Shown one piece after another: positions 43,803 through 48,168 of a stretch of DNA of 64,000 nt (position 1 is the stretch's first letter; the number at the start of each line of letters is the position of its first letter). Made by a program: the position numbers and the translations under genes. Below the pieces are notes generated by a model. The model worked only from the letters and a program-made list of their open reading frames with translations, ran no database searches and was not told the origin of the DNA. This DNA comes from Candidatus Bipolaricaulis anaerobius (GTDB taxonomy: Bacteria > Bipolaricaulota > Bipolaricaulia > Bipolaricaulales > Bipolaricaulaceae): assembly GCF_900465355.1 (NCBI RefSeq), contig NZ_LS483254.1, forward strand, positions 248,001-312,000, given 5' to 3'.

Positions 43803-44189
43803 ATGTTGATCGAGGTGGCAAAGGTGCGGGATGTGCCGCCAGGAGGGCTAAAGGCCGTGGAGGCAGGGGGCAAGGAAATCGTCCTGGCCAACGGCGATGG
43901 GAAGATCTATGCCATCGCCCGCCGCTGCGGGCACATGAACGCCCCCTTGGAGAAGGGAACCCTGGCCGGAAACATCCTGACCTGTCCTATGCATGGGGCC
44001 CGGTTCGATGTCACCACCGGCAAGGTGAAGAGCGAACCGCCGGAGGGAGGACCGATGCCATCTGGGCTTCCCGAGTCATTCGTCCACCATATGGAGCGCC
44101 TGGGGTCCCTCATGGCCGAGATCAAGACTTACGATCTCCCCACCTATCGGGTCCAGGTGGAGGGGAACACCATTAAGGTCGAGATCTGA
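43803..44189 (+). CDS. Rieske-type [2Fe-2S] ferredoxin (first of two)
   Basis: The 128-residue soluble protein has a Rieske cluster site with C42-x-H44 (RRCGHMNAPLEKG) and C61-x2-H64 (TCPMHGARFD). It lacks the disulfide cysteines of bc1-type Rieske proteins, so it resembles the ferredoxins that serve oxygenases or nitrite reductases. A 38-residue insertion with a Pro/Gly-rich part and a helix (about 78-112) precedes the last strands. AGGAGG lies seven bases before the ATG. First gene of a seven-gene redox operon. Confidence 0.87.
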   Translation: MLIEVAKVRDVPPGGLKAVEAGGKEIVLANGDGKIYAIARRCGHMNAPLEKGTLAGNILTCPMHGARFDVTTGKVKSEPPEGGPMPSGLPESFVHHMERLGSLMAEIKTYDLPTYRVQVEGNTIKVEI

Positions 44190-44213
44190 AATCAGCGTCG
44201 TAAGGGGGAGAAC

Positions 44214-44660
44214 ATGCCGCAAGAGATACCGTCTTTGGTCGCTGTGGGCCTCAATCTTGGGGGGTTGGCCGCTCTCCTTTTCCTAGTGGCTAACCTGGCA
44301 GTGATCTTCCATCTCGTGCAAAGGTTGATCGCCCCCAAGAGCCGCTGGGCCTGGCTCGACGGACTGCGGCGCCGCTGGCATTACGTACATTACATCGGCA
44401 ACCTGGCCATGGTCGGGGCCATGATCGCCCACGCGGCGCTGTTAGGCCCGTATGCCTCGCCGTTGCATTGGCTCTTGGTGGCGCTGCTCGTCTGGATGGC
44501 CGGCGTTGGCATCACCCTACGCTTTACCAACGCCTCGCCGAAGGTCAAGCGGGGGCTTTCCCGCCTCCACTCCCGGTGGTACATGTTCGTGGCTGTGTTG
44601 GTGGTCTTGATCGCGGCGCACATCTGGTCACTCCCAAATTTCCCCTACCCCCTGGAGTAG
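44214..44660 (+). CDS. Four-helix His-rich membrane protein, possible b-type cytochrome
   Basis: The 148-residue protein has helices at about 11-35, 57-77, 83-103 and 122-140. His56, His59 and His73 lie in or near helix 2, and His119 and His136 border helix 4, spacings compatible with haem b ligation between helices. I do not recognise the family. If haem-bound, it could pass electrons between the quinone pool and the soluble Rieske or rubredoxin partners encoded beside it. AAGGGGGAG precedes the ATG. Confidence 0.65.
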   Translation: MPQEIPSLVAVGLNLGGLAALLFLVANLAVIFHLVQRLIAPKSRWAWLDGLRRRWHYVHYIGNLAMVGAMIAHAALLGPYASPLHWLLVALLVWMAGVGITLRFTNASPKVKRGLSRLHSRWYMFVAVLVVLIAAHIWSLPNFPYPLE

Positions 44661-44685
44661 GCGGGGTCACAAAAGGAGTCAAAAA

Positions 44686-46662
44686 ATGGGAAAAGAGTTG
44701 AAGTATCCCCGGCTTTTTGAGCCGATCACGCTGCGTGGGGTGGAGATCAAGAACCGCATCCTCTGGCTTCCGCATGAGCCCCATTTCGGCAGCAACGACC
44801 ACCTGCCCACGCGTCAACAGCTCTACTACTACCGGGAGCGGGCCCGGGGCGGCGTCGGGGCCATCGGCGTCCCCAGTTTGGGCGTCCACCGTAGCGGCAC
44901 CTATGCTGGCCTGGTCGACGCCTACCGCCCGGAGAGCATCCCCGGGCTCCGGGCCATTGTGGATGCCGTCCACGCCTACGGGGCCAGGATCTATGCCCAG
45001 CTCACCCACTTCGGGAATCAAACCAAGAGCGCGGAGACGCACGGCCCGGCCTGGGCGCCCTCGGCCGTCCCAGACCTCACGGTGCGCGAGCTCCCCAAGG
45101 CGATGACGGTGGACGAAATCCAGGAACTGGTGGCATCCTTCGCCCGGGCGGCGGAAAATGTGCTCGCCGCCGGCTTCGACTGGGTGGAGATCAAGGTGGC
45201 CCACGACGGCATCCTGCGCCAATTCCTCTCCCCCGCGAAGAACAAGCGCACCGATGCCTACGGCGGCTCGCTCGAGAACCGCGCCCGGATCGTGATGGAG
45301 GTGCTGCGAGCCGTCCGGGACGCCCAGGGCGACGTCCCCTTGGGCGTCCGCCTGTGCCTAAACGAGTATATCCCCCACGGCTACGGCGTAGATGAGGCCG
45401 TGGAGTACGCCAGGATGTTCGCCACTGTGGCTGACTACATCAACACCGACGCGGGCACCTGGGAGTCCATGCACTACATGGTGCCACCGATGACCATCCC
45501 CATGGGCTACTTGCTTGGAGACGTGGCGCGCATCAAGCAGGCGGTGAACGTGCCGGTGATCGGCACCGGACGCATCGTGTGGCCGCAGACCGCCGAGCAA
45601 GCGCTCGCCGATGGGGCATGTGACATGATCGGCATGGCCCGGGCGCTCATCGCTGACCCCTACTGGGCGGAGAAGGCCCAGCGTGGGGCGCCGGAGGAAA
45701 TCCGCGGCTGCATCGGCTGCAACCAGAAGTGCATCGGCCGGCTGCTTCAGAACCTGCCCATCTCCTGCGTGGTCAACCCCACCTCGGGCTACGAGCGTGA
45801 GTTCGGCGCCGAGTTTTTTTACAGGCCCACGCGACGGCCCCGGAAGGCAGTGGTGGTGGGCGGAGGGCCAGCGGGGATGAAAGCCGCCGAAACCATGGCC
45901 CGACGCGGGCATCAGGTGGTGCTCTTCGAGAAGGAGAGGCGGCTCGGCGGACGGGTGAACTGGGAAAGCGCCCTGCCCAATCGCCGCGGCGTCTCCGGTG
46001 CCGGCCGTTACCTGGAACAAACGGTGACCGGGCTTGCCCGGGTCGAGGTCCGGCTCGGCGTGGAAGCGGATGTGGATGCCGTCCTTTTGGAGCAGCCCGA
46101 CATCGTAATCGTCGCCACCGGGGCGATGCCGGTGGCCGAGCTCCCGGGCGTGGAAGCCGCGGGCAACCTGTATCACACCCTGGATGCGCTCGCGGGACGG
46201 GTGGAGGGGGAAACGCTTTTGGTGATGGACAACGACGCCACCGAGGAGGGGGCCGGCGTGGTGGAACTCCTGCTCGGGCAAGGCAAGACAGTCCATTGGG
46301 TGACCCCGGTCTTTTTCAACGGACAGGACATAAACGTCGTTGTTTCCATTCCTTATTATCAGCGCCTAGGCGGCCGGGATGTCGGGCTTTATCCCATGAG
46401 CGTGGTGACCGGCTTCGCTCTGGGCACCGCAACGCTCCTCAACGTTCAGTACGGCACAAGACAGGAGATCACTTGGGTAGACGCCATCGTGGTGACGGGG
46501 GTTTGGGCCCCGAAAAACGAGCTCTATGAAAAGCTCCAGGGGCGACTGCCCCGGCTCCTCATCCTCGGGGATGCGGCGGCGCCGCGCACCTTGGCGGCCG
46601 CCCTGGGCGACGCCATGAGCCTGACCGAAGACCAAATAGAACATGGCAAAAAGAGGAGGTGA
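44686..46662 (+). CDS. NADH:flavin oxidoreductase of the 2,4-dienoyl-CoA reductase/OYE type
   Basis: The 658-residue protein has an FMN TIM barrel (about 1-340) with LFEPITLRGVEIKNRI, HDGILRQFLSPAKNKRTD and YGGSLENRAR, then the [4Fe-4S] motif C342-x2-C345-x3-C349-x11-C361, then FAD and NAD(P)H domains starting VVVGGGPAGMKAAETMARRG near 387. This is the FadH/trimethylamine-dehydrogenase/enoate-reductase layout that moves electrons from NAD(P)H through FAD and the cluster to FMN. Its substrate is unknown. AAGGAG precedes the ATG. It is probably the electron entry point of the operon. Confidence 0.9.
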   Translation: MGKELKYPRLFEPITLRGVEIKNRILWLPHEPHFGSNDHLPTRQQLYYYRERARGGVGAIGVPSLGVHRSGTYAGLVDAYRPESIPGLRAIVDAVHAYGARIYAQLTHFGNQTKSAETHGPAWAPSAVPDLTVRELPKAMTVDEIQELVASFARAAENVLAAGFDWVEIKVAHDGILRQFLSPAKNKRTDAYGGSLENRARIVMEVLRAVRDAQGDVPLGVRLCLNEYIPHGYGVDEAVEYARMFATVADYINTDAGTWESMHYMVPPMTIPMGYLLGDVARIKQAVNVPVIGTGRIVWPQTAEQALADGACDMIGMARALIADPYWAEKAQRGAPEEIRGCIGCNQKCIGRLLQNLPISCVVNPTSGYEREFGAEFFYRPTRRPRKAVVVGGGPAGMKAAETMARRGHQVVLFEKERRLGGRVNWESALPNRRGVSGAGRYLEQTVTGLARVEVRLGVEADVDAVLLEQPDIVIVATGAMPVAELPGVEAAGNLYHTLDALAGRVEGETLLVMDNDATEEGAGVVELLLGQGKTVHWVTPVFFNGQDINVVVSIPYYQRLGGRDVGLYPMSVVTGFALGTATLLNVQYGTRQEITWVDAIVVTGVWAPKNELYEKLQGRLPRLLILGDAAAPRTLAAALGDAMSLTEDQIEHGKKRR

Positions 46663-46668
46663 GAGACG

Positions 46669-46830
46669 ATGAAGAAGTACCAGTGTCCGACCTGTGGTTA
46701 CATCTACAACCCGGATGTGGGCGACCCCAGTGCAGACATCCCGCCGGGCACGCCCTTCGATGACCTGCCCGACGACTGGGTCTGCCCGGTATGCGGGACC
46801 CCTAAGGCGGAGTTCGCGCCTGTTGACTGA
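46669..46830 (+). CDS. Rubredoxin
   Basis: The 53-residue protein is a complete rubredoxin: [19 protein letters not shown] with the first Cys pair, [19 protein letters not shown] with the second. It binds one iron and is a small soluble electron carrier, often a donor to superoxide reductase, rubrerythrin or flavodiiron protein, none of which is encoded here. AGGAGGTGAGAG precedes the ATG, six bases after the flavin oxidoreductase stop. Confidence 0.96.
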
Positions 46831-46840
46831 GGAGGTTAGC

Positions 46841-47152
46841 GTGCCCGCGTGGACAGTTGTGGCCGAAGCGGATGCCATTGGCGAGGGAGAGCTCCGGGCC
46901 GTCTCCGTGGCCGGGCTTCCCATCCTCCTCGTCCGGCGCCAGGGGCAGGTGTACGCTCTGGATGAGCGCTGCCCTCACCTTGGCTGCTCATTGGCCCGGG
47001 GGACTTTGGAGGGCTACATCCTGAAATGCCCGTGCCACGACTGGCGGTTCGATATCCGCACCGGCGAGTTCCTCGCCGCCCCGGAGATCAGGCTCCCCAC
47101 TTACCCGGTCCGGGAGGCCGCGGGGAAGCTTTTCATCGTACGAGGAGACTAG
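46841..47152 (+). CDS. Rieske [2Fe-2S] protein with bc1-type cysteines (second of two)
   Basis: The 103-residue protein has C44-x-H46 and C63-x2-H66 for the cluster plus Cys49 and Cys65 (CPHLGC and CPCH), the pair that forms a disulfide in cytochrome bc1/b6f Rieske proteins and raises potential. There is no signal or membrane anchor, so it appears soluble. GGAGG lies five bases before the GTG start, ten bases after rubredoxin. Differences from the first Rieske protein suggest separate potentials or partners. Confidence 0.87.
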   Translation: MPAWTVVAEADAIGEGELRAVSVAGLPILLVRRQGQVYALDERCPHLGCSLARGTLEGYILKCPCHDWRFDIRTGEFLAAPEIRLPTYPVREAAGKLFIVRGD

Positions 47153-47153
47153 C

Positions 47154-47411
47154 ATGGAGGAGAAAAAGGTATTCTTGTACGCGATAAGCACCTGCCCGTG
47201 GTGTCGGAAGACCAAGCAGTTCTTCACCGATAACCACGTGGAGTTCGATTTTGTGGATGTGGACCTTCTGGAGGGCGAGGAGCAGGAGAAGGTGATGGAC
47301 GAAGTGTATCGCCTGAGCGGGGCCCGTGCTTTTCCCGTGGTCATAATCGGCGAGACGACGGTGGTCGGTTACCGTCCTGACCGCTACAAGGAACTCCTGA
47401 AGATCCCTTGA
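47154..47411 (+). CDS. Glutaredoxin-like thiol-disulfide protein
   Basis: The 85-residue protein has a thioredoxin fold with the redox motif C14-P-W-C17, the cis-Pro segment ARAFPVVIIGETTVVGY and a short final helix. It follows the Rieske stop by one base. CPWC rather than CPYC is seen in several anaerobe glutaredoxins and NrdH-like proteins. A likely electron donor is the reductase chain encoded next. Confidence 0.9.
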   Translation: MEEKKVFLYAISTCPWCRKTKQFFTDNHVEFDFVDVDLLEGEEQEKVMDEVYRLSGARAFPVVIIGETTVVGYRPDRYKELLKIP

Positions 47412-47434
47412 CCATCGTTCAGTCGGGAGGGGAG

Positions 47435-47764
47435 ATGGAGATCGAGGCGCGGAAGCGTGAGCTGCGGGAGTGGTTTGGGAGGGTGGTCGATGTGCTTGGC
47501 TACAAATTCAGCCCCGACGAGGAGCTCGTGGACTTCTTGCTCGAGCAGGAGGTTTTGCTTGAGCGCAAGACCGGGGCTCCCTACTGTCCCTGTCAGGGCC
47601 GCACCGGGAACCGGGAGGAGGATATGCTGATCGTTTGTCCCTGCATCCCCTTCCACCGCAAGCACTTCGACGTGATGAAGCGGTGCTGGTGCGGACTTTT
47701 CGTGCATAAGGACGTCGCCGACCCAAGTGCTCTCCCCCAGATCCCCCTGACCGAAATCACCTAA
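47435..47764 (+). CDS. Ferredoxin-thioredoxin reductase catalytic-chain homologue
   Basis: The 109-residue protein has six Cys in the family order: C51-P-C53, C68-P-C70 and C84-W-C86, followed by GLFVHKDV. These would hold a [4Fe-4S] cluster next to a redox disulfide that reduces thioredoxins. The last pair is CWC instead of the plant CHC, so the active-site His is replaced by Trp, and spacing to it is longer (13 residues). No variable subunit gene is nearby. The ATG at 47435 has GGGAGG upstream; a TTG at 47408 overlapping the glutaredoxin stop is an alternative. Confidence 0.85.
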   Translation: MEIEARKRELREWFGRVVDVLGYKFSPDEELVDFLLEQEVLLERKTGAPYCPCQGRTGNREEDMLIVCPCIPFHRKHFDVMKRCWCGLFVHKDVADPSALPQIPLTEIT

Positions 47765-47835: not shown

Positions 47836-48168
47836 TCAGCCTTCTTTTGAGAGCGGTGGGGAAAGGTACTGGCGGGCCCAGCGGTCGATGGCCCCGATGA
47901 CCTCCCGGAGCGCTAGCCCAGCTTGGGTGAGCTCATAGGTGGTGTGCGGGGGCATCACCGAGTGCACTGTCCTCTTCACGATCCCCAGCTCCTCCAGCCG
48001 ATCGAGCCGTTGGGCCAGGGTGGCTGGGTTGCAGCCGCCCACGGTGCGAGAAAGCTCGTTGAACCGCCGCGGCCCGTCGAGCAGGGCCCGAATGATGTGC
48101 AAGACCCACTTCTCCTGGAGGAGATCGATGGCCACCTCGGCCGGACATCGTTCCCTTTCTTCACCCAT
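47836..48168 (-). CDS. HxlR-family winged-helix regulator
   Basis: The 110-residue protein has the HxlR pattern ERCPAEVAIDLLQEKWVLHIIRALLDG, here with conserved Cys8, then PRRFNELSRTV, LAQRLDRLEELGIVKR and TTYELTQAGLALREV (each segment within the standard wing-helix order). A second Cys is at 46. In YodB, CatR and HypR the N-terminal Cys senses disulfide, quinone or hypochlorite stress. Its position at the end of a thiol/redox operon suggests it regulates that operon. The ATG is nine bases after a TACCAT box, so possibly leaderless. Confidence 0.88.
   Translation of the reverse strand: MGEERERCPAEVAIDLLQEKWVLHIIRALLDGPRRFNELSRTVGGCNPATLAQRLDRLEELGIVKRTVHSVMPPHTTYELTQAGLALREVIGAIDRWARQYLSPPLSKEG

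Follow-up and report, generated by a model that had tools for sequence, protein, structure and literature searches.

A CWC-type ferredoxin-thioredoxin reductase chain linked to glutaredoxin and Rieske genes in bacteria and archaea

Introduction

What does a ferredoxin-thioredoxin reductase (FTR) chain reduce, and which donor feeds it, when the His of its last CHC motif is replaced by Trp? This question is raised by a gene of Candidatus Bipolaricaulis anaerobius, located in a 64,000-nucleotide stretch of DNA that was analysed as a whole and is referred to here as the window. FTR is driven by ferredoxin and FDR through a rubredoxin centre, and both are textbook cluster-based disulfide cleavers: in FTR, four cysteines bind a [4Fe-4S] cluster, the other pair forms a redox disulfide, and the donor docks on one face, the acceptor on the opposite one. 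An FDR with Tyr and a rubredoxin is already known, as are glutaredoxin-type substrates, as the titles of PDB entries 4TPU and 7PWE and the biochemistry of FDR indicate, and Prakash et al. reportedly found in 2018 that FDR reduces methanoredoxin. A preliminary description of the window chain drew attention to the Trp and to a neighbouring glutaredoxin gene, and proposed a non-canonical target; it made no mention of a Rieske gene, which adjoins the glutaredoxin gene.

Results

The window chain and its closest known systems

The stretch GGGAGGGGAG lies ahead of the ATG start of the chain gene (47435-47764, forward strand). The product matches the Pfam family FeThRed_B (PF02943; E 2.2e-25; 89.2 bits, cut-off 22) and has exactly six cysteines, in the order C51-P-C53, x14, C68-P-C70, x13, C84-W85-C86. 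By analogy with plant FTR, we take C51, C68, C70 and C84 to be the predicted [4Fe-4S] ligands and C53-C86 the redox disulfide. In a profile alignment, W85 falls opposite the His of FTR 1dj7 ("CHC") and the Tyr of Methanosarcina acetivorans FDR 4tpu ("CYC"), and appears to occupy their place beside the active-site cysteine. The preliminary description was thus right that the plant-type CHC has become CWC with all six cysteines kept.

Two of its other statements need rewording, since a long spacing and the lack of a variable subunit are both usual outside plants and cyanobacteria. The 13 residues ahead of the last motif do differ from the plant spacing of x8, but this is no peculiarity of the window chain, as five samples together gave 117 distinct CPC-type chains, every one with x12 or x13 at this place under a pattern that tolerated 4-18 residues. 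Likewise, no FTR variable chain (PF02941) was detected in any of ten genomes (its own and nine others), with a positive Synechococcus control, but too much had been read into this absence, which is uninformative because the variable subunit is described, in the relevant part of PMC9025218, as exclusive to oxygenic phototrophs.

An AlphaFold2 model of the chain, built with 30 sequences, reached a pLDDT of 91 and was closest in the PDB to 7PWE (Z 10.8, 3.1 Å over 103 residues), followed by 4TPU (Z 9.4) and FTR entries (Z 6.8-7.8). The modelled fold is that of FTR and FDR, closest to FDR, a likeness that is silent on function. The FDR of M. acetivorans (4TPU) shares with the window chain the catalytic fold, the six cysteines, the long spacing before the last CxC, an aromatic residue for the FTR His, and, judging from gene linkage, a glutaredoxin-type partner. 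It differs in having Tyr and x12 rather than Trp and x13, in falling in a separate clade, and in its C-terminal rubredoxin, which CWC chains lack (0/79) and in place of which they have a Rieske protein, separate or fused. The top fold match, 7PWE, is a Grx/FDR fusion from Desulfotalea psychrophila whose N-terminal part (residues 1-82) is homologous to the window glutaredoxin; unlike the window chain it has a CYC motif, and its glutaredoxin is fused rather than separate. It was absent from the PDB matches of the window Rieske proteins. Plant and cyanobacterial FTR (1DJ7 and complexes) have in common with the window chain a PF02943-type catalytic chain with CPC...CPC...CxC, but possess a His, a shorter spacing, a variable subunit and a thioredoxin partner, the last as named in the entry titles. 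Finally, the NCBIfam model FtrB_double_U matched residues 16-92 weakly (37 bits, cut-off 160); it describes a selenoprotein family, whereas the window chain has no Sec.

The gene run around the chain gene

The chain gene is the last of seven genes on the same strand, spanning 43803 to 47764 with intergenic gaps of 1-25 bases (Table 1). The glutaredoxin gene ahead of it, already reported in the preliminary description, is borne out by its Pfam match, and the nearest solved relatives of its product are 3nzn, 3ic4, 5cax and the N-terminal part of 7PWE.

Table 1. Features of the gene run and the adjoining regulator (window coordinates)
Feature	Position	Strand	Remarks
Rieske protein 1	43803-44189	+	CGHMNA...CPMHGA, without extra Cys pair
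Hydrophobic putative membrane protein	44214-44660	+	148 aa, several His; between Rieske 1 and flavoprotein genes
Old yellow enzyme/FadH-type flavin and NAD(P) oxidoreductase	44686-46662	+	mycofactocin_OYE_2-like, under its cut-off
Rubredoxin	46669-46830	+	belongs to gene run, outside conserved core
Rieske protein 2	46841-47152	+	GTG start; CPHLGC...CPCHDW, with extra Cys pair
Glutaredoxin, CPWC dithiol type	47154-47411	+	PF00462 E 1e-13; directly upstream of FTR gene
FTR/FDR catalytic chain	47435-47764	+	109 aa, ATG start; CPC-x14-CPC-x13-CWC
HxlR-family regulator	47836-48168	-	just downstream of FTR gene; Cys near N-terminus

The window holds one Rieske gene of each of two types, both upstream of the chain gene; Rieske protein 1 is the counterpart of the type that related loci carry downstream of theirs. 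The putative membrane protein had no Pfam match at E 0.1 and could be a b-type cytochrome-like membrane electron carrier; it and the old yellow enzyme-like flavoprotein are candidates only for the reductant of the Rieske protein or the target of the glutaredoxin in the window. The HxlR regulator is weakly similar to RrpB of the redox MarR/HxlR group (67 bits against a cut-off of 175), and may possibly control the gene run by redox state.

The PF02943 gene is confined to one of 40 genomes in its own family (that of Ca. B. anaerobius itself) and occurs in 6 of 100 genomes of the phylum; in the remaining five it is only a distant relative, of CYC or CFC type, with a glutaredoxin. The G+C content of the gene run is 63%, compared to 68% for the whole window. 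Given this patchy occurrence and the lower G+C, the chain gene was likely gained horizontally here.

A clade of CWC chains in archaea and bacteria

A scan of genome contigs yielded 42 loci with relatives of the window chain, at 62-75% identity, from both archaea and bacteria: Methanosarcinales, Methanoperedens, a Bathyarchaeota record, Actinomycetota/Thermoleophilia, Chloroflexi, Omnitrophota, Elusimicrobia and one Deltaproteobacteria record. All were caught through the patterns YKFSPDEE or GAPYCPCQ, neither of which includes the CWC, and none through FDVMKRCW. The CWC was kept in all 41 intact copies, the 42nd (L056) being split over two frames, and W85 and the six cysteines were invariant across 30 aligned sequences. 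Other types of DNA gave no relatives: tblastn of the window protein against plasmids produced no match, six pattern matches on viral contigs included no relative, and two patterns that targeted the CWC region at the DNA level hit 0 and 6 stretches of viral contigs, the six having no FTR similarity by tblastn.

A tree built from 94 FTR chains (98 columns, quick method) placed 31 of its 32 CWC rows, the window chain included, on the same side of a branch whose SH-aLRT is 99. The Trp of these chains is not noise: they form one supported clade. The only other CWC row, L223, is long-branched and does not belong to this clade, and has x13 but neither glutaredoxin nor Rieske partner; Trp alone was for this reason rejected as a diagnostic marker.

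Partners of the different residue types

The sampling of PF02943 genes covered the order to which a Methanolobus genome belongs, as well as three phyla, each represented by one genome (of Chloroflexi, Deltaproteobacteria and Actinomycetota, respectively). Partners (within 400 bp) and C-terminal tails were counted for distinct motifs only, with spacings of x13-x15 and x11-x13; degenerate copies and chains whose first spacing is nine residues were excluded. In the Methanosarcinales sample, 27 of 71 loci had no CPC-type motif, some of them being CSC/CFC...CKC or CRC types that were counted for partners; the other samples included four loci without a CPC-type motif, and identical copies were counted once.

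Glutaredoxin genes were found within 400 bp of 76 of the 79 CWC chains and thioredoxin genes near none, in a set that is not an unbiased sample because it consists mostly of chains fetched by similarity to the window protein or to a fusion. When restricted to the PF02943-only samples and the window's own locus, 16 of 17 CWC chains had both a glutaredoxin and a Rieske partner, although some of these genomes were chosen as cassette holders. The reverse was seen for CHC chains, with glutaredoxin near 0 of 20 and thioredoxin near 6 of 20, two of these six hits being circular because the thioredoxin profile was built from two CHC-linked thioredoxins. Glutaredoxin was also the neighbour of most CYC (48/50), CLC (13/15), CFC (8/8) and CYU (Sec; 11/11) chains, i.e. 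80 of the 84 chains of the pooled Tyr, Leu, Phe and Sec types, but of only one chain each among 23 CKC and 5 CRC chains. The subgroup suspected in the preliminary description, CWC chains linked to glutaredoxin, is therefore real as a branch and as a linkage, but the linkage is not specific to CWC. Its proposal of a non-canonical target gains support from the same counts, and the CWC motif, which it allowed might prove common in ordinary thioredoxin-linked chains, was accompanied by a thioredoxin in none of the samples.

For Rieske domains the picture is different: 75 of 79 CWC chains, but 0 of the 132 chains of other types, have one fused to them or encoded at a distance of 400 bp or less. Among the chains sampled, the Rieske partner is thus specific to CWC, while the glutaredoxin linkage holds for the Tyr, Leu, Phe and Sec types as well, among which is the FDR kind. 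Six CWC chains were exceptions in one or the other count: L026, L044 and L045, which have no Rieske gene within 400 bp yet one farther off in the locus, L051, L250 (at a contig edge) and the unrelated L223.

Other neighbours and motifs were noted among the sampled chains. Two CHC chains of Methanosarcinales (L092:1835-2257 and L180:2033-2437) adjoin a classical thioredoxin (PF00085, E 4e-31 and 8e-25), i.e. the partner opposite to that of the aromatic types. The CKC chains L104, L112 and L222, also from Methanosarcinales, adjoin a lactamase-like/flavodoxin protein of flavodiiron type, recognised by Pfam ODP and Flavodoxin_1 at L104 and by sequence likeness at L112 and L222. In 11 chains the last motif is CY-TGA, readable as Sec for the last Cys, and all of these (L125, and L154, L160, L168-L170, L175, L176, L178, L179 and L224 of the Actinomycetota sample) have a glutaredoxin nearby and a rubredoxin-like tail. 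An FTR-like chain at L127, with CP-TGA as its first motif, CRC as its last and a glutaredoxin nearby, may carry Sec at another position.

Rieske genes of the cassette and natural fusions

Each of the 42 related loci has a glutaredoxin gene, located upstream and adjoining the FTR gene in 41 (the exception being L051, where it lies 2.9 kb upstream), as well as a Rieske gene of the window's kinds. Among the 81 Rieske genes of these loci, the 55 whose products have an additional pair of cysteines (CxHxxC...CxCH) are without exception upstream of the FTR gene, and the 24 that lack it are all downstream, the remaining two being unreadable, so that every readable upstream Rieske carries the pair; one Rieske gene each in L042 and L056 was assigned to its side by coordinates. 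In Rieske proteins of the bc1/b6f type, the extra Cys pair forms a disulfide. Several Methanosarcinales loci have two or three upstream Rieske genes (L016, L021, L023, L026, L028, L032, L035, L037-L039 and L057), and a nitroreductase-like protein, named by eye, occurs in 12 of the 42 loci.

Three of the sampled Actinomycetota chains run in frame into a Rieske domain. When the same actinomycetotal class was searched for this fusion, 57 of 246 genomes matched it over nearly its full length, and all 30 loci fetched from these 57 contained uninterrupted FTR(CWC)-Rieske frames with the Rieske at the C-terminus, preceded by a glutaredoxin gene in 29, the remaining locus beginning at a contig edge. 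In L227, for instance, Pfam placed FeThRed_B at residues 37-126 and Rieske at 142-219 of the fusion protein, with a PF00462 gene upstream. The fused Rieske is without the extra Cys pair, and is the sole Rieske detected in the 30 fusion loci (flanks of at most about 1.5 kb). Its equation with the downstream type was rejected: 29 of the 30 fused domains favour the upstream-type profile (mean 73 versus 63 bits) despite the absent cysteines, and the fused Rieske is hence not simply the downstream type.

A rubredoxin-like CxxC...CPxC tail was present at the C-terminus of 66 of 84 CYC, CLC, CFC and CYU chains and of 0 of 79 CWC chains, while a C-terminal Rieske was found in 29 of the 79 CWC chains and in none of the other types. 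Rubredoxin tails in FDR-like chains and the fused Rieske in part of the CWC clade are thus two carriers in the same C-terminal place. A further natural Grx-FTR fusion besides 7PWE, with a CYC motif, was encountered at L132:1465-2487 as a single open frame of 341 aa.

Discussion

We propose that the CWC-type chain, as a [4Fe-4S] disulfide reductase, receives its electrons from a Rieske [2Fe-2S] protein and passes them on to glutaredoxin, which would make it a Rieske counterpart of FDR. On balance, this reading seems somewhat more probable than otherwise. Electrons would pass from the Rieske protein to the CWC-type FTR chain, on to the CPWC glutaredoxin, and finally to protein or small-molecule disulfides. 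They would enter the [4Fe-4S] cluster singly, as in FTR and FDR, and the cluster and the predicted C53-C86 pair would open the glutaredoxin disulfide via a mixed-disulfide, cluster-bound intermediate, with the Rieske protein as the point of electron entry in place of FDR's fused rubredoxin. Both this cluster chemistry and the direction of electron flow are inferred. The parts of the proposal differ in strength. That glutaredoxin is the electron acceptor is likely, given the conserved linkage, the correlation between residue and partner, and the solved Grx/FDR fusion. That Rieske is the donor is reasonably probable, in view of the exclusive linkage, the natural fusion and the parallel with the FDR rubredoxin. 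The two Rieske types of the cassettes and the rubredoxin gene of the window nevertheless represent alternative possible donors, and soluble Rieske potentials are generally higher than those of the ferredoxins that drive FTR, so that dithiol reduction by Rieske could be uphill unless a low-potential Rieske is involved.

The roles could also be reversed, with ferredoxin or rubredoxin feeding the chain and the Rieske protein being a client whose extra Cys pair is kept in a particular redox state by glutaredoxin and the FTR chain, as a form of tuning or repair. The strict placement of the Cys-pair Rieske genes upstream and of those without the pair downstream would suit this alternative, as would the rubredoxin gene in the window. 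In the 30 fusion loci, however, the only Rieske detected within flanks of at most about 1.5 kb is the fused one without the pair, and a Rieske disulfide target is therefore not a general reason for the linkage, leaving this account unlikely, though deserving of serious consideration.

The Trp chain might instead be an electron carrier, or a sensor of thiols or oxygen, rather than a reductase, within a cassette that serves as a stress-response module. Trp is chemically unlike His or Tyr, the weakly RrpB-like HxlR regulator follows in the window, and a superoxide dismutase-like neighbour, named by eye, was seen in 6 of the 42 loci. Against this, the six cysteines are invariant, including the predicted redox disulfide pair, and a dithiol glutaredoxin partner has been retained in archaea and bacteria, which makes a non-catalytic chain improbable.

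Slightly more doubtful still is the possibility that the module here mainly serves a substrate-reduction chain of the old yellow enzyme, the rubredoxin and the putative membrane protein, with the disulfide step being secondary. This is what the tight run of seven same-strand genes might suggest, but in the available DNA of the 42 related loci, several of which end at contig ends, the old yellow enzyme had no match and rubredoxin a match in one, so the core Rieske-glutaredoxin-FTR unit exists without them. An ordinary thioredoxin-reducing FTR chain with incidental glutaredoxin and Rieske neighbours, suggested by the Pfam family and overall fold shared with FTR, is already disfavoured and most improbable, since within 400 bp none of the 79 CWC chains had a thioredoxin gene while 76 had a glutaredoxin gene, the linkage holds across two domains of life, and the own genome gave no full-length thioredoxin hit, its five thioredoxin-domain hits covering at most 64 of 103 positions in open frames of at least 183 aa.

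If the Rieske-fed reading is correct, the CWC chains might tentatively be treated as a separate class, a "Rieske:glutaredoxin reductase" with entry through a Rieske domain instead of ferredoxin or rubredoxin and glutaredoxin outlet, which would have spread as a small cassette between archaea and bacteria and been reduced in some Actinomycetota to a glutaredoxin plus an FTR-Rieske fusion, such that His, Tyr/Leu/Phe and Trp next to the active-site cysteine mark different partner sets; the evidence makes this conceivable, if not quite probable. No account of a Rieske-glutaredoxin-FTR cassette, or of a Rieske-linked Trp branch, was found in the open-licence PMC literature. With the natural FTR-Rieske fusion, a single purified protein suffices for a direct test of the central claim. 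Under the Rieske-fed reading, a one-residue marker would predict whether FTR-like chains serve thioredoxin or glutaredoxin, and cluster disulfide reductases would work over a wider range of potentials. The CWC system points to an uncharacterised electron route into protein disulfides, through which the soluble Rieske proteins of anaerobes would gain a role beyond ring-hydroxylating oxygenases.
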